Assembly: GCA_945878725.1 (NCBI GenBank)
Contig: CAMCTY010000010.1
Coordinates: 1 to 64,000 of the forward strand
Direction: 5' to 3'
Source of the DNA: Bifidobacterium breve
GTDB taxonomy: Bacteria > Actinomycetota > Acidimicrobiia > Acidimicrobiales > Acidimicrobilacustridaceae
DNA: 64,000 nucleotides
Shown here: positions 14,848-27,475 of the stretch, piece by piece
How the letters are laid out: each line of letters begins with the position of its first letter
How positions within the stretch are numbered: the stretch's first letter is position 1
The notes under the pieces: generated by a model
What the model was told of the DNA's origin: nothing
Seen by the model: the letters and a program-made list of their open reading frames with translations, nothing else
The model's database searches: none
Translations under genes and position numbers: made by a program

Positions 14848-15936
14848 ATGGCCGGTTCCGAACGATTGCGACTCGTTGTGCTTTTCGGCGGTCAGTCCGC
14901 CGAACACGATGTCTCTCGGGTGACTGCCCGTCACGTTCTCGCCGCCGCTGATCCAGAGCGTTATCACCTGCTTCCTATTGGCATCGGCCGTGATGGTCGC
15001 TGGGTCCGCGCCGACGCAGCGATCGCCGCTCTGGCTAAAGGAACCGAGTTCCTTCCCGAATCGCTCGCTGTCGAAGGACCAACCGTCAATCCATTCGACG
15101 TTCTTGACAAGACCGACGGTCCCGTCGTCGTGATGCCTCTGCTTCATGGCCCTATGGGCGAAGACGGAACTGTCCAAGGCCTGCTCGAAGTGGCCGGCGT
15201 CGCCTACGTCGGTTCTGGTGTCCTCGGTTCATCAATGTCAATGGACAAAGTCGCCGCCAAGCATCTCGCTGCTGCCCACGGGTTCGCCCAGACGGCATGG
15301 CGCGGCCTGCATCGCAGCGACGTCCCCGACTCACCGGTAGGCGAAGAGTTTCTCGACGGACTCGCAAAGGAACTTGGATTCCCAATGTTCGTCAAGCCCG
15401 CCAACATGGGTTCGTCGATCGGCATTTCAAAAGTTGGTGACCGTGCGACATTGCGCCCGGCAATCGACGCTGCGCTTCAACACGACGACTGGATTGTCGT
15501 CGAAGAAGGCGTTGTTGCTCGCGAGATCGAAGTCGCTGTTCTTGGCCACACCACATCGCCACGAGCATCGGTTCCGGGCGAGATCATCGCCGGTGCCGAG
15601 TTCTACGATTACAACGACAAATACGCCGATGGCGTGGCGCAGCTCCTCATACCTGCTCCACTCAATGATGAATTGACTGAACAGGTTCGCGATTTTGCCT
15701 GTCGGGTGTTTCGTGCGTATCGGGCCGAGGGCTTTGCCCGCGTCGACTTTCTCTTTGAGGAAGGCGGACGCGGCCTATTGCTCAACGAAATCAACACGAT
15801 TCCTGGATTCACGCCTATCTCCATGTATCCGCAGATGTGGCAGGCATCAGGACTTCCGTACCGGGCCCTGATCGACGAACTGGTTGGCCTCGCCATTGAG
15901 CGGCACGATCTCGCCGCCCGGACCCGCCTGCACTAA
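14848..15936 (+). CDS. ddl: D-alanine--D-alanine ligase
   Basis: 362 residues. ATP-grasp features are FGGQSAEHDVS near the N-terminus, LLHGPMGEDGTVQGLLE, GSSMSMDKVAAK, VKPANMGSSIGISKV and the metal-binding LLNEINTIPGFTPISMYP. It joins two D-alanines for peptidoglycan. It is divergent from murF, so supply and use of D-Ala-D-Ala can be co-ordinated. The -10 box lies 6 nt before ATG 14848. It ends 9 bp before the convergent TetR gene. Confidence 0.96.
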   Translation: MAGSERLRLVVLFGGQSAEHDVSRVTARHVLAAADPERYHLLPIGIGRDGRWVRADAAIAALAKGTEFLPESLAVEGPTVNPFDVLDKTDGPVVVMPLLHGPMGEDGTVQGLLEVAGVAYVGSGVLGSSMSMDKVAAKHLAAAHGFAQTAWRGLHRSDVPDSPVGEEFLDGLAKELGFPMFVKPANMGSSIGISKVGDRATLRPAIDAALQHDDWIVVEEGVVAREIEVAVLGHTTSPRASVPGEIIAGAEFYDYNDKYADGVAQLLIPAPLNDELTEQVRDFACRVFRAYRAEGFARVDFLFEEGGRGLLLNEINTIPGFTPISMYPQMWQASGLPYRALIDELVGLAIERHDLAARTRLH

Positions 15937-15944
15937 GTCTGGTT

Positions 15945-16670
15945 CTACGGAACCGCGACCATTGCGGCACGTAGGAAGGCCAACAACTCGCGACGACGGA
16001 TCACCGTCGAGCGCAATGTCGGTTCGACTCCGACGGCACGCAGCACCTCGGCTTCGGTCGCAACGCCAAGCACGGTCGAATACGCAGACACAAGAAGCAG
16101 GCCGGGATCACAACGCCGAATGCGACCGGCGTCCATCTCGCGAGAGAAATAGTCGCGGGCCCGTTCCACGAATGGTTCGAGGTCAGTCGACACGCGAAGG
16201 GCGGCATTGCCACCCAAACGACTCACTTCACGGATCAGGCCGAGCAGCTCCGGGCGACGCAACGCGACGCGAAAGACCGCCCGCACGAGAGACTCGATGC
16301 GATCCCAACCGGTACCGGCGTCGTTTAGGGCCCCGTCGAAGGCGATGATCAGATCGAGGCAGGCCCGGTCGATAACGGCATCAAGAAGGGCGACCTTCGA
16401 GGGGTAGTGGTACAGGATCGCCTGCTTCGACACCCCAAGTTCTGCGGCGATCTGATCCAGTGAGGTCGCATCGAATCCGTCCGTGCCGAACGAATTGAGG
16501 GCTTCGTTCAGGATCCGATCCTCGGTGGCTTTCGTCTGTGCCGCCCGTTTACCCGGCTTACGGGGCCCTGTTCCAGCCCCTGATCGAGGCCGCGCTCGAA
16601 GCTCCGATGCCATGGGGGGAAGGGAAACGGGGGCGGCCATGAGGACCATGGTAGACGATTCACTTACCAA
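15945..16670 (-). CDS. TetR-family regulator of the adjacent lipid operon (start uncertain)
   Basis: Up to 241 residues. A TetR N-terminal HTH (ILNEALNSFGTDGFDATSLDQ ... GVSKQAILYHYPSK) follows a basic, proline-rich extension, and the rest is a helical ligand domain. Possible starts are TTG 16670, ATG 16649, ATG 16640 and ATG 16613. AATGTT 6 nt before TTG 16670 is close to the local leaderless promoter pattern, but no start has a good Shine-Dalgarno sequence. It is divergent from the acyl-CoA reductase operon, with a perfect palindrome in the 17-bp gap region. It probably senses an acyl-CoA or lipid (inference). Confidence 0.85.
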   Translation of the reverse strand: MVSESSTMVLMAAPVSLPPMASELRARPRSGAGTGPRKPGKRAAQTKATEDRILNEALNSFGTDGFDATSLDQIAAELGVSKQAILYHYPSKVALLDAVIDRACLDLIIAFDGALNDAGTGWDRIESLVRAVFRVALRRPELLGLIREVSRLGGNAALRVSTDLEPFVERARDYFSREMDAGRIRRCDPGLLLVSAYSTVLGVATEAEVLRAVGVEPTLRSTVIRRRELLAFLRAAMVAVP

Positions 16671-16677
16671 GTGGTAA
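16664..16677. promoter_or_regulatory. Palindromic TetR operator
   Basis: TTACCAAGTGGTAA is a perfect inverted repeat (TTACC-N4-GGTAA) between the divergent TetR and reductase genes. It overlaps the likely -10 region of the reductase promoter (AAACAT, 16676-16681) and the first codons of the longest TetR frame. Binding would block both promoters. Confidence 0.75.
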
Positions 16678-16687
16678 ACATTCGTCC

Positions 16688-19045
16688 GTGATTCGTGAAT
16701 CTCTCGCCGGCAAGCGTCTATTCATCACCGGCACCACCGGGTTCCTCGGCACCAACCTGCTCGAGCGACTCCTGCGTTCGGTGCCCGAGTGTGAAGTTGT
16801 GTTGCTGGTGCGCGCCGGTAAACGATCGAGCGTCGAGCAACGCGTCAAGCGCGAGATCTTTAAGAACGACGCTTTCGACCGTTTGCGGGCCAAACTCGGT
16901 GCCGAGGGGTTCGCCGAGATGATCGAACGCCGCGTCACGTCGGTTGCCGGCGATGTCGGCCGTGACGGCCTTGGTCTCGACGAAGCAGGCCGTGCGGTGC
17001 TGGCCAGTTGCGACATCATCATTCACTCAGCCGCCACCGTGAGCTTCGATTCCCCGCTCGATTCGGCCGTTGAGGTCAATCTCCTCGGCCCGACCCGTAT
17101 TGCACTCACGTGCCAGGACCTCGGCATCACACCTCATCTCGTCGCCGTCTCGACCTGTTACGTCGCTGGCAATCGCCGCGGTGCCGCTCCCGAACAACTC
17201 GTTGACGAAAGCCCCTTCTTTATTGATGTTCCGTGGCGCGGAGAAGTCGAGGGCGCGCGTCGTGCTCGTCGCGACGCCGATGCCGACAGCCGCACACCCG
17301 AGAAGCTCAAGGAATTCCGTGAACGGGCCCGCCGCGAACTCGGTGCCGCCGGCACTCCCCTGCTCGCCGACAAGACCGAACAGTGGCGCACCCGATGGGT
17401 GGCCGATCGCATGGTCGAAGCCGGCCGCGCTCGCGCCGCTTCGCTCGGATGGCCCGACGCGTATGCCTATACAAAGGCCCTCGGCGAACGAGCACTTGTC
17501 GAGAACCGGGGCAACGTGCCCGTCAGCATCGTGCGTCCCTCGATTATCGAGTCGGCACTCGCCGAACCGGTTCCCGGCTGGATCCGCGGCTTCCGGATGG
17601 CCGAGCCGGTCATCATCAGTTACGCACGCGGTCTGCTCAAGGAATTCCCGGGCATCCCCGAAGGCATCGTCGACGTCATCCCCGTCGATCTCGTGTCGGC
17701 CGCGATCATCGCCGTGGCCGCCAAAGGGCCCGAAGAAAAGCCCGAGGTCGTGCAGGTCGCATCCGGATCGCAGAATCCCCTGCGCTATCGCCGACTCGTC
17801 GATCTCATCAGCGCCTGGTTCCAGCTGCATCCGCTCTATGACACAAAGGGCCAGCCGATCATGGTGCCCACGTGGTCGTTTCCTGGTCGCGGCAGTGTTC
17901 AAACACAGTTGCAGCGGGCGAAGTCCGGCCTCGAACGCGTCGAAAGCGTGCTCTCGGCTCTGCCGTTGCGCGGCGCACAGGCCCAATGGGGCGCATCGAT
18001 TGAAGCAAAACGTGAAGAAGCGGAACGTGCCCTCGGATACGTCGAGCTCTACGGCGCGTACGCCGAGTGTGAGGCCGTTTACGGACTTGATCGCCTCATC
18101 GCGATGTGGGACGCACACAGTGCGGAGGACCAGCGGGACTTCTGCTTTGATCCCCGCGTTATCGACTGGGACTACTTCGTTGAGGAGATCCATCTGCCGT
18201 CGGTCGTCAAGGCCGCCCGTGTGCGCACGACGCCCGGAGGAAAGGTCGGAGCATCACGTTCGACTCGTCTGCGCGAGCAGGTACTCGCCCCCGAACGTCA
18301 GCTCGCCGCATTCGATCTCGAGAACACCCTCATCGCGTCGAACGTCGTATCGAGTTACGCGTTCATCGCAACACGACGTATGCCCCGCGACGAGCGCATT
18401 CGTTTCGTTGCCTCGCTTTTGGCCGAGGGACCCTCGCTGCTCTCACTCGATCGTAAGGACAGAAGCGATTTCCTGCGCATGTTCTACCGTCGCTATGACG
18501 GTGCCCCGATCGACCAGATCGCCGAGGACTCGGCCGAAATGTTCAGTCGGCTCATCCTCGCCAAGTCGTTTCCTGCGGCAATCAGACGCGTTCGTGCCCA
18601 CAAGGCAGCTGGCCATCGCACGGTATTGATCACCGGCGCACTCGACTTTGTCGTCAAGCCCCTCGAGCCTCTCTTCGACGACATCATCGCCACCGAGATG
18701 AACACAAGCGGCGGCACCTACAACGGCGAGCTCGCCAATGTTCCGCCGACCGGTGAGAGTCGTGCCCAGGTGTTGATGGACTACGCCGAGCTACACGGAC
18801 TCGACCTCGCCGAAACAGTTGCGTACGCCGATTCAACCTCTGATCTGCCGATGCTTGAGGCCGTCGGGTTCCCTGTGGCCGTGAATCCGGAAATGCGACT
18901 CGCAGCACTCGCCCGCAAACGCGGCTGGCTCGTCGAACAGTTCTCGAAGTCGCCAGGTTCGGCTCGCACGCTCGTCCCGATCGGGCCTCGTCGGGGTCGC
19001 AACGGTGGTCTTTCCAATCCCCTCGTTCCTGGAGGCACAGCATGA
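16688..19045 (+). CDS. Fatty acyl-CoA reductase fused to a HAD-IB hydrolase domain
   Basis: 785 residues with a GTG start. Residues ~1-500 form an NAD(P)-dependent fatty acyl-CoA reductase. It has a Rossmann TGTTGFLG (14-21), a YAYTK catalytic pair (Y259, K263), and a FAR_C-like region. Residues ~535-760 form a HAD-IB phosphatase-like domain with motif I DLENT (D543, E545 instead of the second Asp), motif II TGA and motif IV DSTSDLPML (D715, D719). The reductase makes fatty aldehyde or alcohol from acyl-CoA; the HAD substrate is unknown. It is the first gene of a four-gene operon and overlaps the next by ATGA. Confidence 0.88.
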   Translation: MIRESLAGKRLFITGTTGFLGTNLLERLLRSVPECEVVLLVRAGKRSSVEQRVKREIFKNDAFDRLRAKLGAEGFAEMIERRVTSVAGDVGRDGLGLDEAGRAVLASCDIIIHSAATVSFDSPLDSAVEVNLLGPTRIALTCQDLGITPHLVAVSTCYVAGNRRGAAPEQLVDESPFFIDVPWRGEVEGARRARRDADADSRTPEKLKEFRERARRELGAAGTPLLADKTEQWRTRWVADRMVEAGRARAASLGWPDAYAYTKALGERALVENRGNVPVSIVRPSIIESALAEPVPGWIRGFRMAEPVIISYARGLLKEFPGIPEGIVDVIPVDLVSAAIIAVAAKGPEEKPEVVQVASGSQNPLRYRRLVDLISAWFQLHPLYDTKGQPIMVPTWSFPGRGSVQTQLQRAKSGLERVESVLSALPLRGAQAQWGASIEAKREEAERALGYVELYGAYAECEAVYGLDRLIAMWDAHSAEDQRDFCFDPRVIDWDYFVEEIHLPSVVKAARVRTTPGGKVGASRSTRLREQVLAPERQLAAFDLENTLIASNVVSSYAFIATRRMPRDERIRFVASLLAEGPSLLSLDRKDRSDFLRMFYRRYDGAPIDQIAEDSAEMFSRLILAKSFPAAIRRVRAHKAAGHRTVLITGALDFVVKPLEPLFDDIIATEMNTSGGTYNGELANVPPTGESRAQVLMDYAELHGLDLAETVAYADSTSDLPMLEAVGFPVAVNPEMRLAALARKRGWLVEQFSKSPGSARTLVPIGPRRGRNGGLSNPLVPGGTA

Positions 19046-20256
19046 GAGCGCTCCGTTTCGAACGGAACATCCCGCGCTTCGCTGCCGCAACCATCGCCAG
19101 TCGTCTCGGCGGCAGCGGTGCCAAGGTCGGCCCGTTGCGTCTGCGCTCAATCGATGCTCCGAAACTTCCTGGCGCCGACTGGGTCGAGATCCTTCCCCGC
19201 CTTTCCGGCATCTGCGGTTCCGATCTCGCCACCATCAACGCACAGAGCACGCGCTACTTCGAGCCGATCGTTTCGTTTCCTTTCGTTCCCGGCCACGAGA
19301 TCGTTGCCGACCTGCGTGAGCCCGTCGGCAACATTCCTGCTGGCCGCGTGGTTGTCGAACCCGTGCTCGGTTGCGTTACTCGGGGCATCGCTCCCGTCTG
19401 TGCAGCATGCGAACGTGGCGATCTCGGCAACTGCGAGCGCATCGCGTTCGGGGCCCTCGAAGCCGGATTGCAGACCGGGTTCTGCTGCTCGACGGGTGGC
19501 GGCTGGTCAACGCGCATGGTCGCTCATGTCAGCCAGCTGCATCCCGTTCCCGAATCCTGGACTGACGAGGCGGCCGTCATGGTCGAGCCGACCGCGTGTG
19601 CCGTGCACGGGGCTCTCATCGCCGATGTGGCCGAGGGCGACCTTGTTGTCGTGCTCGGTTCCGGCACCTTGGGCCTGCTCACCATCGCCGCACTGCGCCG
19701 CTTCGGTCGGCCCTGCACAATCCTTGCGGTCGCAAAACACCCACATCAACGCGAACTAGCGGCCGAGTTCGGCGCCGACATCGTCGTGTCGCCCAATGAG
19801 CTCACCCGTTCGGTCCGTCGGGCCAGCAACTCACTTGCACTCGGAGACGGAGACATCATCCGCCTCACCGGTGGCGCCGATCACGTGATCGATTGCGTGG
19901 GTTCGCAGGAAAGCATCGCCGAAGCGCTCGGCGTCGTGCGTCCGAAGGGTCGCATCACGCTCGTCGGGATGCCGGGCCACGTGTCTGTCGATCTCACCGG
20001 TCTCTGGCAGCGCGAGATCACACTTTCGGGTTCGTATGCCTACGGGACCGAAACCCTCCCCGACGGTTCGCGTCGCCGCACCTTCGATCTGGCCTTCGAG
20101 CTGGTCGAGGCTGCCGATCTCGGACGTCTCGTGTCCGCTGTCTATCCGCTCTCCAGCCATGAACAAGCCCTCGCACACGCGTCGGCTTCAGGAGCCCGAG
20201 GTGCTGTTCGCATCGCCTTTGACCTCCGTGATGAAAAGGAACGCAATCGTGCCTAG
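19042..20256 (+). CDS. Zinc-dependent medium-chain alcohol dehydrogenase
   Basis: 404 residues. The GroES-like N-terminus has the catalytic-zinc motif GICGSD and FPFVPGHEIVADL. A cysteine-rich structural-zinc lobe (CVTRGIAPVCAACERGDLGNC) and a Rossmann core with VVLGSGTLGLLTIAAL follow. It probably interconverts an alcohol and aldehyde, plausibly the product of the reductase encoded just upstream (ATGA overlap). Substrate chain length cannot be read. The next gene starts inside its last codons. Confidence 0.87.
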   Translation: MRALRFERNIPRFAAATIASRLGGSGAKVGPLRLRSIDAPKLPGADWVEILPRLSGICGSDLATINAQSTRYFEPIVSFPFVPGHEIVADLREPVGNIPAGRVVVEPVLGCVTRGIAPVCAACERGDLGNCERIAFGALEAGLQTGFCCSTGGGWSTRMVAHVSQLHPVPESWTDEAAVMVEPTACAVHGALIADVAEGDLVVVLGSGTLGLLTIAALRRFGRPCTILAVAKHPHQRELAAEFGADIVVSPNELTRSVRRASNSLALGDGDIIRLTGGADHVIDCVGSQESIAEALGVVRPKGRITLVGMPGHVSVDLTGLWQREITLSGSYAYGTETLPDGSRRRTFDLAFELVEAADLGRLVSAVYPLSSHEQALAHASASGARGAVRIAFDLRDEKERNRA

Positions 20257-21844
20257 ACCAGGTTTCGTCCTCGATGTCGATCGCTCGACACCACCAATTC
20301 TCTTTCACCACGGTGAGGGATTCCGGCTTGAGCGCCTGCCCGCAGGCCGAAGCCGCGTGATCTACCCGTCGGAGCCGATTGAGGCACTCAAGAACCCCGA
20401 CGCGGCGATCCGCGACGCACTGATCAACCCGATCGGCGACAGCGAGCCGCTCACCGCGCTTCTCAAGCCCGGCATGAAGCTCACCATCGCGTTCGATGAC
20501 ATCTCGCTGCCGTTGCCCCCAATGAAGCGCCCCGACATCCGTCAGCGCGTCATCGAGGCTGTCCTCGACCTCGCTGCCGCCGCAGGTGTCGACGACGTCA
20601 TGCTCATCGCTGCACTCGCACTGCACCGTCGCATGACCGAGTCCGAACTTCGTCACGCCGTCGGTGACCGCGTGTATGACGCCTTCGCACCCGACGGTCG
20701 GCTGATCAACCATGACGCCGAAGATCCCGACAACCTTCTCTACATCGGCTCGACCGAAAAGGGTGAAGAGGTCGAGATCAACAAGCGCGCTGCCGACAGC
20801 GATCTCATCATCTACGTGAACATCAACCTCGTGTCGATGGACGGCGGCTGGAAGTCAACTGCCACGGGGCTGGCCAGTTATCGCTCGCTTCGCCATCATC
20901 ACAACGTGCGCACGATGCAGCACTCGAAGTCGTTCATGGATCAGCACAAATCTGAACTCCATTCCGCCAACTGGCGTATGGGCAAGGTCCTGCGCGACTC
21001 CGGCATCAAAGTCTTCCAGATCGAGACCACGATGAACAACAACGTGTTCGGAACCGAAGGCCCGATGAGCGTTCTTCAGAAGCGCGAATGGGAATGGTCG
21101 CTCAAGGACCGCGTCACGATGGCCGGCATGAAGACTGCCCTTGATCTGATGCCGTCGCGCACAAAGCGTTCGATCTTCCAGGGTTGGCAAGCTCCGCACG
21201 CAATGACGTCGGTGCAAGCCGGTGAGGTCGAGGCCGTCCACAAACTCACCACTGAAAACGTCTACAAGCAGCATCTCGTGCAGGTCGAGGGACAGACAGA
21301 TATCCTCACGATGGGCCTCCCCTACATCAGTCCGTACAACGTCAACTCGATCCTTAATCCGATTCTCGTTGCGTGTCTTGGGCTCGGTTACTTCTTCAAC
21401 CTCTACCGCGGTAAGCCCCCGGTGCGCGAGGGCGGCGTCGTCATCATGAGTCATCCGACGCCGTGGGAATTCCATCCCGTTCATCACCCGAGCTACATCG
21501 ACTTCTTCGAGCAGGTCCTGTCGGTCACGACAGATCCGCTCCGGATCGAAGCGGAGTTCGAGAAGTCGTTCGCCGAAGACGAGTGGTACCGACACCTCTA
21601 CCGCACGAGCCACGCCTATCACGGCGTGCATCCGTTTTACATGTGGTACTGGTGCTCGCATGCACTGCAACACGTCGGCGAGGTCATCATCGTCGGTGGT
21701 GATGTGCGCGCCGTTCGTCGTCTCGGCTTCAAGCCGGCATCAACTCTGCAAGACGCACTCGAGATGGCCAGTGACGTCGTCGGCCGCGATGCCACGATCA
21801 CCCATCTTCATAACCCGCCGATCCTCATGGCCGACGTCTCCTGA
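20249..21844 (+). CDS. LarA-like DUF2088 protein (nickel-pincer racemase relative) in a lipid operon
   Basis: 531 residues from GTG 20249. AAGGA 8 nt upstream decides this start, and it overlaps the dehydrogenase stop by 8 bp. LarA-like signatures are ALHRRMTESEL and NHDAEDPDNLLYIG in the N-domain, then IIYVNINLVSMDGGWK with GLASYRSLRHHH. LarA racemises lactate using a nickel-pincer cofactor made by LarB/C/E; none of those is nearby, and the canonical ligand stretch is altered. The C-terminal third is unusually long and histidine/tryptophan-rich. A racemase or epimerase of a hydroxyacyl compound is a guess. Confidence 0.7.
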   Translation: MPRPGFVLDVDRSTPPILFHHGEGFRLERLPAGRSRVIYPSEPIEALKNPDAAIRDALINPIGDSEPLTALLKPGMKLTIAFDDISLPLPPMKRPDIRQRVIEAVLDLAAAAGVDDVMLIAALALHRRMTESELRHAVGDRVYDAFAPDGRLINHDAEDPDNLLYIGSTEKGEEVEINKRAADSDLIIYVNINLVSMDGGWKSTATGLASYRSLRHHHNVRTMQHSKSFMDQHKSELHSANWRMGKVLRDSGIKVFQIETTMNNNVFGTEGPMSVLQKREWEWSLKDRVTMAGMKTALDLMPSRTKRSIFQGWQAPHAMTSVQAGEVEAVHKLTTENVYKQHLVQVEGQTDILTMGLPYISPYNVNSILNPILVACLGLGYFFNLYRGKPPVREGGVVIMSHPTPWEFHPVHHPSYIDFFEQVLSVTTDPLRIEAEFEKSFAEDEWYRHLYRTSHAYHGVHPFYMWYWCSHALQHVGEVIIVGGDVRAVRRLGFKPASTLQDALEMASDVVGRDATITHLHNPPILMADVS

Positions 21845-21854
21845 GGGCACTGAC

Positions 21855-22859
21855 ATGAGCAACGCAACACCTTCACGAATGCCAATCACCCGCAAGCAGG
21901 CGATAAAGCTGATCAAACGGCTTCCCGTCAACCGCACCGTGGGGAACTCTGTCGTCCGCAGAGGCGGCTCGATCGGCCGAATCGTGAAAACCCTCGTCAC
22001 CGAGCCCACCGTTCCGAACGGCGTCAAGGTTCTCGCCAAGGAAAGCAAGGTCGGCGCCAATTACGACACCGACTGGGCGCGTTCGTATCCCGCCCGCGCC
22101 GCACGCGTTCTGCTTGTCGAGGGTCTCGTCCGGCCGCTCATCGACATCCTTGCCACCCCGACGGTTTACGGCGACGATCGTCTCACCGACATCGAAGGTC
22201 CGGTTGTCTTCGCTGCGAACCATCACAGCCACATCGATACTCCGTTGATGCTGTCGGTCATTCCGGAACCGTGGCGCCACCACCTCTTTATCGGTGCCGC
22301 CGCTGATTACTTCTTCGGAAACCAGATCACCTCCACTCTTTCGGCGCTGGTGATTGGTGCCATCCCGATTGAACGCACGAAGGTCACCCGCAACTCCGCC
22401 GATCAAGCGGCAGTTCTCCTTGACGACGGATGGAGCATGCTCATCTTCCCTGAAGGCGGACGCTCCCCCGACGGTTGGGGTCAGCAGTTCCGTGGAGGCG
22501 CTGCGTATCTCTCGCTTCGTTGCAACGTTCCTGTCGTTCCCGTGCATCTCGAGGGAACCGGCAAGGTGCTTCGCAAGGGCAAGAACATTCCCCGACTGCA
22601 TCCGACGTCGGTCACATTCGGTAAGCCCATCATGCCGAACGAGGGCGAAGATTCACGACACCTCGCCATTCGTATCGAGGAAGCGGTCGCCGCTCTTGCT
22701 GATGAAGCAGCAACCGATTGGTGGCAGGCCCGCCGACGCGCGGCAGCAGGCGAGACTCCATCGCTTCAGGGTCCCGATGCGGGTTCATGGCGCCGGTCGT
22801 GGTCACTTGACGATCGCAAGCGCGCTCGAAACGGAAAGCGTAACTGGCCCGAGGTCTGA
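21855..22859 (+). CDS. PlsC-like 1-acyl-glycerol-3-phosphate acyltransferase
   Basis: 334 residues from ATG 21855, 10 bp after the LarA-like gene. The acyltransferase HX4D motif appears as NHHSHIDT, block II is IPIERTK, and block III is FPEGGRSPDG. A PVVPVHLEGTGKVLRKGK region completes the family pattern. These enzymes transfer acyl groups to lysophosphatidate or other alcohols at the membrane. As the last gene of the reductase operon, it may acylate a special lipid made by this cluster. It ends 18 bp before the convergent lipoprotein gene. Confidence 0.86.
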   Translation: MSNATPSRMPITRKQAIKLIKRLPVNRTVGNSVVRRGGSIGRIVKTLVTEPTVPNGVKVLAKESKVGANYDTDWARSYPARAARVLLVEGLVRPLIDILATPTVYGDDRLTDIEGPVVFAANHHSHIDTPLMLSVIPEPWRHHLFIGAAADYFFGNQITSTLSALVIGAIPIERTKVTRNSADQAAVLLDDGWSMLIFPEGGRSPDGWGQQFRGGAAYLSLRCNVPVVPVHLEGTGKVLRKGKNIPRLHPTSVTFGKPIMPNEGEDSRHLAIRIEEAVAALADEAATDWWQARRRAAAGETPSLQGPDAGSWRRSWSLDDRKRARNGKRNWPEV

Positions 22860-25198: not shown

Positions 25199-27475
25199 AT
25201 GGCCGTTTCCGCCACCACCCCGATCGAATTGATCAACGCCGTCTACGGCCGACTCGCCGAGCGAGTCGAACTCGGACGCACCCGTCTCGGTCGCCCGCTC
25301 ACGTTCGCCGAGAAGGTTCTCGTAAACCATCTCCGTGATCCGCAGAACCAAGAACTTGAGCGCGGCCGCAGCTACGCCGATCTCGATCCCGATCGCGTCG
25401 CCATGCAGGACGCCACCGCCCAGATGGCACTGCTGCAGTTCATGACCGCCGGTTTGCCCGAGGCAGCCGTGCCGTCAACCGTTCACTGCGATCATCTGAT
25501 CCAGGCAAAGAGCGAAGGTCGCATCGACCTTGCGGTCGCCAACGATGTCAATGCCGAGGTTTACGACTTCCTCGAATCCGTTTCGGCCAAGTACGGCATC
25601 GGCTTCTGGAAGCCCGGCTCCGGCATCATCCACCAGGTCGTTCTCGAGCAGTACGCGTTCCCCGGCGGCATGATGATCGGCACCGATAGCCACACCCCCA
25701 ACGCTGGTGGTCTCGGCATGATCGCAATCGGTGTCGGTGGAGCCGATGCCGTCGACGTCATGACCGGCTACCCGTTCAACGTTCGCTGGCCCAAGCTGAT
25801 CGGCGTGAAGCTCACCGGTGAACTCGCCGGTTGGTCGGCTCCGAAGGACATCATCCTCGAGGTCGCTCGCATCCTCACCGTCAAGGGCGGCACCGGCGCC
25901 ATCGTCGAGTACTTCGGCCCCGGCGCCAACTCGATCTCCTGCACCGGCAAGGCAACGATCTGCAACATGGGTGCAGAAATCGGTGCCACTACGTCGCTGT
26001 TCCCCTACGACGCGGCCATGTCTCGCTATCTCAAGTCCACCGACCGTGCGGCGGCGGCCGAAGCAGCCGACGCCGTTGCCGCCGACCTGCGCGCCGATGA
26101 CGACGTGCTCGCCAATCCCGAGAAGTACTTCGATGAGGTCATCGAGATCAACCTCTCGACCCTTGAACCGCTCATCAATGGCCCGCACACCCCTGACCGC
26201 GCCCGCAAGGTGAGCGAACTCGGCGCCGAAGCCAAGGCCGAAGGTTGGCCGATGGAAATCTCGTCAGCCCTTATCGGATCGTGCACGAACTCCTCGTACG
26301 AGGACATCAGTCGCGCTGCGTCGATCGCCCGCTTCGCTGCAGAGAACGGACTCAGCGCCAAGACGCCGCTCCTTGTCACCCCAGGTTCCGAGCAAGTTCG
26401 CGCCACTATCGAACGTGACGGCCTTCTCGCCGATCTCGAACAGATCGGTGCGACCGTGCTCGCCAATGCGTGCGGTCCGTGTATCGGGCAGTGGTCGCGC
26501 AGCGATGTGAAAGAGGGCGACACCAACATCATTGTCACCTCTTACAACCGCAACTTCCCGAAGCGCAACGACGGACTCGCATCGACGCTCGCGTTTGTCA
26601 CATCACCCGAAACCGTCGTGGCTATGGCGCTCGCCGGTCGCGTCGATTTCGATCCCATCACCGACACGCTTACGAACGCGTCGGGCGAACAGGTTTCGAT
26701 TCCGATTCCGGTGGGTATGGAACTTCCCGAAAAAGGCTTCACCCCCGGCGAGAGCAGTTTCATCGCTCCCCCAGCCGACAACTCGGGCGTTTCAGTGAAG
26801 GTCTCCCCGACTTCCGATCGTCTCCAGCTTCTTGAGCCCTTCGATGCGTGGGACGGCAATGACTTCACCAATCTGCCGATCCTCATGAAGGCCAAGGGCA
26901 AGTGCACGACCGATCACATCTCGGCGGCTGGTCCGTGGCTTAAGTATCGCGGCCATCTCGAGAACATCTCGGGCAACATGTTCATCGGTGCCGTCAACGC
27001 CTTCACTGACGAGGTCGGTCAGGGCAAGGATCAACTCGACGGCACGACCAAGTCCTTCCCCGACATCGGCAAGAGCTATCACCAAGCCGGTCAGGGCTGG
27101 ATCGCCATCGGTGACGAGAACTACGGCGAAGGTTCGTCACGCGAGCACGCCGCAATGGAGCCTCGCTACCGCGGCGCGAAGGTTGTACTCACCCGCAGCT
27201 TCGCCCGCATCCATGAGACCAACCTCAAGAAGCAGGGTGTGCTTCCGCTCGTGTTCGCCGATCCGAAGGTTTACGACCTCATCGAGCAGGACGATCGCAT
27301 CAACGTTCTTGACCTTGCCAATCTCACTCCGGATGTTCCGGTGAAGTGCCAGATCGTGAAGCCCGACGGCACGACGATCGACTTCGAAGGCATCCAGACG
27401 ATGAACGACGAGCAGATCGGCTGGTTCAAGGCCGGCGGCGCACTCAACATCATCCGTCAGCGCCAGGGCGTCTAA
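25199..27475 (+). CDS. acn: Aconitate hydratase (mitochondrial-type)
   Basis: 758 residues, close to the mitochondrial-type family and shorter than AcnA (~890). Cys362 (GSCTNSS), Cys425 and Cys428 (ACGPCIGQW) are the [4Fe-4S] ligands. [11 protein letters not shown] and [14 protein letters not shown] (swivel domain) are present. It isomerises citrate to isocitrate via cis-aconitate; citrate synthase lies ~3.6 kb downstream. The 120-bp upstream gap has TAGACT (25134-25139) as a weak -10 candidate. It is convergent with the BKACE gene, 15 bp apart. Confidence 0.95.

Follow-up and report, generated by a model that had tools for sequence, protein, structure and literature searches.

The known substrates of characterised nickel-pincer enzymes are small hydroxy acids and sugar acids, which these enzymes racemise or epimerise (PMC7583248, PMC11770544), and the second catalytic histidine is missing from LarA groups 14 and 15 (Gatreddi et al. 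2025, PMC12611868). Among lipid operons, elb of Myxococcus xanthus joins a fatty acyl-CoA reductase (FAR), a HAD protein and an AGPAT-type acyltransferase (PMC9131029). Here we describe a locus that unites parts of both kinds. It lies in the 64,000-nucleotide stretch that was analysed (the window), on contig C10 (CAMCTY010000010.1) of the 2.26-Mb, 93% complete genome of a freshwater-type actinobacterium, and comprises a TetR-family regulator gene and four enzyme genes, encoding a FAR fused to a HAD-IB domain (FAR-HAD), a zinc alcohol dehydrogenase (ADH), a LarA-like protein and a PlsC acyltransferase. Genes were called from open reading frames (ORFs) and Pfam/NCBIfam profile matches, and the start regions were inspected. 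These calls confirmed the families named in the original prediction and the coupling of its four genes, with overlaps of 4 bp (FAR-HAD/ADH) and 8 bp (ADH/LarA-like) and a 10-bp gap between the LarA-like and PlsC genes; the range it gave, 16649..22859, covers the four enzyme genes and omits the TetR gene itself. Its interpretation, a TetR-controlled operon of a possible new lipid pathway, is partly supported: TetR control, a single conserved operon and a lipid role are all favoured below. Taken together, the conserved, regulated gene set points to an undescribed lipid pathway.

Conservation of the gene set and its regulator

By tblastn we compared the locus with a close set, made up of the 80 best of at least 575 related loci (L003-L082), and with a distant set of 20, drawn from other families of the phylum and order, whose LarA-like protein scores above the NCBIfam cut-off. 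Gene order was counted at loci with enough contig, which were 67 of the 80 upstream and 74 downstream, and 18 and 20 of the distant set, respectively. We found that FAR-HAD stands upstream of the LarA-like gene in 67/67 close loci and PlsC downstream in 74/74, while the ADH gene lies between HAD and the LarA-like gene in 34/67 and is missing in 33/67, where the gap between the two is at most 232 bp. In the distant set, FAR-HAD is directly upstream in 15/18, all 15 with ADH in between, and PlsC is downstream in 15/20. One distant arrangement (L133) has a PlsY gene preceding FAR-HAD, ADH and LarA, with no PlsC match after LarA. The gene order is ancient; a lack of conservation in relatives would have refuted the original prediction, and these counts clearly show that the order is conserved. 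A tree of 82 LarA-like proteins requires two changes of the ADH label, which suggests that ADH was present ancestrally and has been lost once or twice. Alignment A1 holds the window and 45 of the 76 full-length loci.

FAR-HAD and the LarA-like gene also occur together across genomes. In a sample of the order (120 genomes: 119 requested at a completeness of at least 95%, and the window's own), 108 carry the LarA-like gene (over the cut-off in 107 and split in one), and exactly these 108 also have FAR-HAD at E 1.3e-51 or better, which gives 108 genomes with both, 12 with neither and no discordant case. FAR-HAD matches in the 12 non-carriers reached at best 8.2e-24, or were absent, and the two matches that could be placed cover the HAD part. 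Because these non-carriers span five families, four of which (f2, f4, f8 and f88) also contain sampled carriers, the pair was probably lost jointly more than once; as the 120 genomes share ancestry, they do not amount to 120 independent cases. In a sample of 396 genomes of the phylum, with FAR-HAD counted at E 1e-70, the LarA-like model was matched in 170 and its cut-off passed in 86, and FAR-HAD was found in 91. Both were present in 82 genomes, the LarA-like gene only in 4 and FAR-HAD only in 9, four of these nine having partial LarA-like copies; when six partial copies are counted, the numbers become 86, 6 and 5. Of the 82 pairs, 72 are no more than 5 kb apart and another 3 are separated by 7.6-7.8 kb, and in 7 the two genes fall on different contigs. 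The two genes are hardly ever found without each other, and the counts of co-occurrence and synteny rule out chance neighbours.

The TetR gene is divergent in 37/47 Acidimicrobiia loci with 6 kb of upstream sequence. Between it and FAR-HAD lies a perfect palindrome, TTACCAAGTGGTAA, which is unique in the window at up to one mismatch and was found in 0 of 100 shuffles. A like palindrome with 0-3 mismatches occurs in 56/56 TetR-FAR gaps (window included), and in 55 of these it is no more than 190 bp away from the start of FAR. When each gap was shuffled 200 times, an equal score came up in no more than 2.5% of the trials. We then scanned 122 sources (the window, L002, L003-L082 and L114-L153; 2.03 Mb) for the strict form [CT]TACCANNTGGTA[AG] and identified 55 occurrences. 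Of these, 54 are at most 1.3 kb from a FAR start, and the remaining one is the window's own, beside FAR-HAD. A wider TetR regulon was discarded, as no further copy of the strict palindrome turned up in these 2.03 Mb, which do not include the rest of the genome. The best NCBIfam match of the regulator is RutR, below threshold (54 vs 230 bits), whose operator presumably shares an ACCA-NN-TGGT core with the palindrome. The palindrome is likely the TetR operator, judged by its conservation and position, and it supports the predicted TetR control.

Dedicated control of this kind would also suit a catabolic or detoxification operon, whose TetR protein would sense a fatty aldehyde or hydroxy acid and whose enzymes would degrade or recycle it, and dehydrogenases are reversible. 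However, the constant PlsC (or PlsY) and the acyl-CoA reductase better match synthesis, and we consider a catabolic role improbable.

The LarA-like protein and its cofactor genes

The LarA-like protein carries a Lar_N domain (PF09861, 135.9 bits against a cut-off of 23.3) and passes the curated cut-off of NF052592 (LarAH14/15/16; 883.5 against 740 bits), and it scores far below the cut-offs of four other matching LarA models. Identity as a lactate racemase (NF033504) was rejected, since the score of 83.9 bits falls short of the 460-bit cut-off and the match is confined to the N-terminal part. Its nearest solved relatives by sequence are the LarA_Sp/LarA_Bw chains 9q2u and 9q3j (132.6 and 100.7 bits), the LarA_Sp chain having been tentatively identified by residue numbers; residue roles and numbering follow PMC12611868. 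In the alignment to LarA_Sp, His126, Lys202 and His218 are kept, as are Tyr363 and His461 in the C-terminal domain. The second catalytic histidine is missing: residues 189-200 contain no histidine and form a shorter loop with Asn191 and Asn193. Residue counts were made over 123 rows, consisting of the window and 79 loci, the 20 distant loci, 11 carriers without LarB and LarC (one partial) and 12 of 20 loci whose LarA-like gene is under the cut-off; the other 8 of these 20 were excluded, as coverage and score limits were unmet. By its Lar_N domain and its predicted nickel-pincer nucleotide (NPN) lysine and nickel histidine, the protein can be assigned to the LarA superfamily. A membrane-binding amphipathic helix in its insert (~285-315) was considered and dropped, since hydrophobic moments of 0.08-0.39 at the printed starts are unremarkable.

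The 20 under-cut-off loci have none of the operon partners. At one of them (L134:328-4508) the LarA-like relative adjoins a glycyl-radical enzyme of the glycerol-dehydratase family, possibly another nickel-pincer pathway. Five others (L136:8791-11701 and its kin L137-L139 and L147) have relatives, ~39-42% identical, near a family III CoA-transferase.

No lar cofactor-maturation genes had been seen, and indeed none lies in the operon. Elsewhere, however, the genome encodes LarB (234.2 bits), LarC1 (201.2 bits) and a TIGR00268 protein (284.1 bits, cut-off 150), a model that we take to be that of LarE, so the statement is true only locally. Grouping with nickel-pincer lactate racemases that have a full lar set elsewhere had been named as a counter-argument; the lar genes are present, and the racemase grouping is refuted by the NF033504 score. 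The larC and larB genes lie together on contig C26, where their ORFs overlap (L083:6155-9488), and the TIGR00268 protein is encoded on C2. LarC was found in 97/108 carriers of the order vs 1/12 non-carriers. The operon's LarA-like protein is the only PF09861 match in its own genome, and such a protein is the sole one (E 1e-10 or better) in 95/108 carriers. Since LarC tracks the carriers and the LarA-like protein is mostly alone in its family, the nickel-pincer genes are very likely kept for it. Against this assignment weigh 11 carriers that have neither LarC nor LarB and one non-carrier (G430) that has both; LarB was examined in 30 genomes.

His126, Lys202 and His218 are intact in 11/11 carriers without LarB and LarC (L163-L173, from genomes G263, G294, G401, G404, G446, G451, G480, G485, G489, G491 and G471), for which cofactor salvage, diverged genes or assembly gaps may account. 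A P450 gene (PF00067), with nearest solved chains of the CYP125/CYP124 types, adjoins larC in the window's genome. Unlike this neighbour, larB and larC stay together in relatives, and the P450 was abandoned as a source of 2-hydroxy chains, being beside larC in only 2/20 relatives' neighbourhoods.

A lipid product and its alternatives

The FAR part of FAR-HAD matches PF07993 (200.1 bits) and the HAD-IB part PF12710 (103.4 bits) and TIGR01490 (107.8 bits, cut-off 98.3); the best solved chain for the protein is 7eoz, named fatty acyl-CoA reductase (198.4 bits). The FAR domain has what we take to be its GxxGFxG and YxxxK motifs. YxxxK is conserved over 82 rows and the NHxSHxD-type motif of PlsC over 91, and by these motifs both enzymes look intact. 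The genome encodes three PF01553 acyltransferases, so the operon's PlsC is not the sole one. A FAR combined with PlsC or PlsY indicates a lipid product, and a lipid pathway, as originally proposed, is the simplest reading of FAR and PlsC, with PlsY in the PlsC-less L133. It is probable that the operon belongs to lipid synthesis; this pathway class is well supported, and its substrate and product we infer.

The same partners could form an ether-lipid operon like elb, in which FAR would give a fatty aldehyde or alcohol, an enzyme elsewhere or the operon itself would make the ether bond, ADH would reduce an alkyl-ketone intermediate, PlsC would acylate sn-2 and the LarA-like enzyme would act on a glycerol-like backbone. 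Besides the shared FAR, HAD and acyltransferase parts (here PlsC or PlsY), elbD insertion strongly lowered ether lipids and the elbD mutants lacked an i15:0 aldehyde (PMC9131029), and in the suboxic Black Sea the most abundant Agps homologues were assigned to Actinobacteria among others (PMC11868695). However, Pfam identified no acyl-CoA ligase, acyl carrier protein (ACP) or AGPS among the five operon proteins, AGPS not having been searched beyond the operon, and this scheme leaves the LarA-like enzyme without a clear step. We regard it as unlikely.

FAR-HAD might instead supply fatty alcohol to a wax synthase, in a side pathway to wax esters or triacylglycerol. Genes for wax ester synthase/diacylglycerol acyltransferase (WS/DGAT) are common in Acidimicrobiia (PMC10351704), and we found them in 72/120 genomes of the order. 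Their distribution disfavours this role, as they occur in 62/108 carriers vs 10/12 non-carriers, and PF03007 gave no match at E 1e-20 or better in the window's genome, 93% complete, or in three same-genus relatives. Such a supply is highly improbable.

The solved chains nearest the ADH include threonine dehydrogenases and xylitol, ketose, sorbitol and butanediol enzymes, the latter four of which work on vicinal diols or ketols. Its top NCBIfam matches are polyol enzymes, far under their cut-offs (scyllo-inosose 3-dehydrogenase, 92.5 vs 450 bits). These matches would fit a headgroup pathway, with ADH and the LarA-like protein isomerising a polyol or sugar acid, PlsC acylating it and FAR-HAD giving the alkyl part of a glycolipid or polyol lipid. 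Single-histidine LarA relatives have been proposed to act on carbohydrates (PMC12611868), and a protein named LarAH15, a possible member of NF052592, is a gluconate/mannonate epimerase (PMC11770544). Yet half of the Acidimicrobiia loci lack the ADH and retain FAR-HAD and PlsC, and, TetR and the module itself aside, none of the gene families recurs in more than 4/20 distant loci, as judged by rough gene calling. A headgroup pathway is quite unlikely, and the missing ADH also weakens the plain scheme of reductase plus dehydrogenase in the original prediction.

We prefer a TetR-controlled lipid-biosynthesis operon with a nickel-pincer step, in which the operon would be controlled by its own TetR regulator. 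FAR-HAD would reduce a long-chain acyl thioester, probably 2-hydroxyacyl, and the LarA-like enzyme, with NPN from LarB, LarC and LarE encoded elsewhere in the genome, would shift a hydride at C2 of the 2-hydroxy acid (or aldehyde), thereby fixing its stereochemistry or the place of the redox change. The zinc ADH, where present, may complete the alcohol or work on a vicinal ketol or diol, and the free hydroxyl would be esterified by PlsC. LarA-type enzymes act at C2 of hydroxy acids, and an isomerised, reduced and acylated 2-hydroxyacyl chain would employ every part, which suggests an acylated 1,2-diol-type or similar lipid. In Thermomicrobium roseum, 1,2-diols are membrane lipids, with biosynthesis details described as unclear (PMC2615216). 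As a whole, this is our best explanation and a tentative one, held with somewhat less than even confidence; within it, C2 chemistry on a fatty chain comes close to an even chance, and a diol product is doubtful. The LarA-like protein might, as a bolder suggestion that we make with reserve, be the first nickel-pincer enzyme of lipid synthesis, using its single histidine to move a hydride in one direction only on a 2-hydroxy carbonyl derived from a fatty acid, for an undescribed membrane lipid of most sampled Acidimicrobiales and several distant actinobacterial families.

Several observations weigh against this preferred pathway. Seven hydroxy-acid assays of LarAH14 from Frankia sp. showed no activity (Desguin et al. 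2020, PMC7583248), and 1,2-diol lipids in this class are not reported in the literature searched, which gave nothing useful beyond Thermomicrobium. A candidate source of the 2-hydroxy group, the larC-adjacent P450, is kept in only 2/20 neighbourhoods of relatives. The first HAD-IB motif is DxE (DLENT, in 80/94 rows) and not the usual DxD, so phosphatase activity is uncertain. The 11 carriers without LarC and LarB matches include 4/4 sampled of genus g15. Finally, ADH is absent from the operon in 33/67 loci, and in the distant set FAR-HAD is not directly upstream in 3/18 and PlsC is unmatched within 400 bp downstream in 5/20.

Locus layout and comparison with known systems

The feature coordinates are collected in the table. 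The LarA-like gene has an alternative in-frame ATG at 20231, which would give a 26-bp overlap with ADH instead of 8, and an alternative TetR start (TTG 16670) would fall within the palindrome. The operon is flanked by genes for D-Ala-D-Ala ligase (Ddl; 14848-15936) and aconitase (25199-27475), which flank it in many Acidimicrobiia loci and mark its conserved chromosomal place; by rough gene calling, both are among the families found in 3-4/20 distant loci. The closest LarA-like relatives carry the labels Microthrixaceae, Candidatus Microthrix and Acidimicrobiales. A HAD-PlsC fusion gene lies near the operon at L118:1049-2611, and its gene cluster occurs in 12 loci.

Table. Features of the operon and its regulator, in window coordinates
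Feature	Position	Strand	Evidence
TetR-family regulator	15945..16649	-	PF00440 51.9 bits; divergent; ATG 16649
Likely operator palindrome TTACCAAGTGGTAA	16664..16677	strandless	Sole window site at ≤1 mismatch
Fatty acyl-CoA reductase (FAR) fused to HAD-IB	16688..19045	+	Pfam/NCBIfam; best solved chain 7eoz
FAR (NAD_binding_4) domain, GxxGFxG and YxxxK	16724..17707	+	PF07993; conservation over 82 rows
HAD-IB domain, first motif DLENT	18305..18859	+	PF12710; DLENT in 80/94 rows
Zinc medium-chain dehydrogenase/reductase (MDR), the ADH, polyol/ketose-dehydrogenase-like	19042..20256	+	Pfam/NCBIfam; nearest solved chains
LarA-like protein, LarAH14/15/16 family	20249..21844	+	NF052592 883.5 bits; GTG start
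His126, predicted counterpart of first catalytic His	20624..20626	+	Aligned to LarA_Sp His115; 123/123 rows
Lys202, predicted counterpart of NPN-holding Lys	20852..20854	+	Lys in 122/123 rows, remaining row masked X
His218, predicted counterpart of nickel-ligand His	20900..20902	+	Aligned to LarA_Sp; 123/123 rows
PlsC/AGPAT-type acyltransferase	21855..22859	+	PF01553 67.8 bits; downstream in 74/74 loci

If the proposed pathway is true, the partnership with a FAR and an acyltransferase would bring the nickel-pincer cofactor into lipid chemistry, and it would offer a testable substrate class for the assay-inactive LarAH14 and for the single-histidine puzzle. The carriers come, by their record labels, from lake, sea and other habitats, and a new core lipid could serve as a biomarker. 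In open PMC papers we did not meet the operon, its palindrome or the FAR/LarA pairing, although a supplementary context table of PMC7583248 may list group 14 neighbours. The component families are already known; the operon partners described here are from this work.

The elb operon resembles the locus in bringing FAR, HAD and an AGPAT-type acyltransferase together. It also has acyl-CoA ligase, ACP (ElbD) and NAD-epimerase parts, whereas the five proteins here have no ligase or ACP matches in Pfam; its HAD is a separate gene, here fused to FAR, and the account of elb in PMC9131029 names no LarA-like protein. HAD-IB and PlsC are likewise paired in the Actinomycetota HAD-PlsC fusions (PMC10351704), where HAD is fused to PlsC and not to FAR. 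With lactate racemase LarA (NF033504) the LarA-like protein shares the Lar_N domain and NPN-binding residues, but it has one catalytic histidine only. To Frankia sp. LarAH14 it is tied by the same-named model NF052592, whose cut-off it passes. In the 2024 paper (PMC11770544) the name LarAH15 belongs to a gluconate epimerase from Phytophthora, whose pocket resembles those of gluconate epimerases, so the numbers used in the literature may not correspond to the groups. LarA_Sp and LarA_Bw (PMC12611868) have the lysine, the nickel histidine and the first histidine in common with our protein, and the second histidine is absent in all; they have asparagine in its place, whereas the alignment shows the loop of the LarA-like protein to be shorter by four residues. 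The gene neighbours of LarA_Sp and LarA_Bw are sugar enzymes (PMC12611868).

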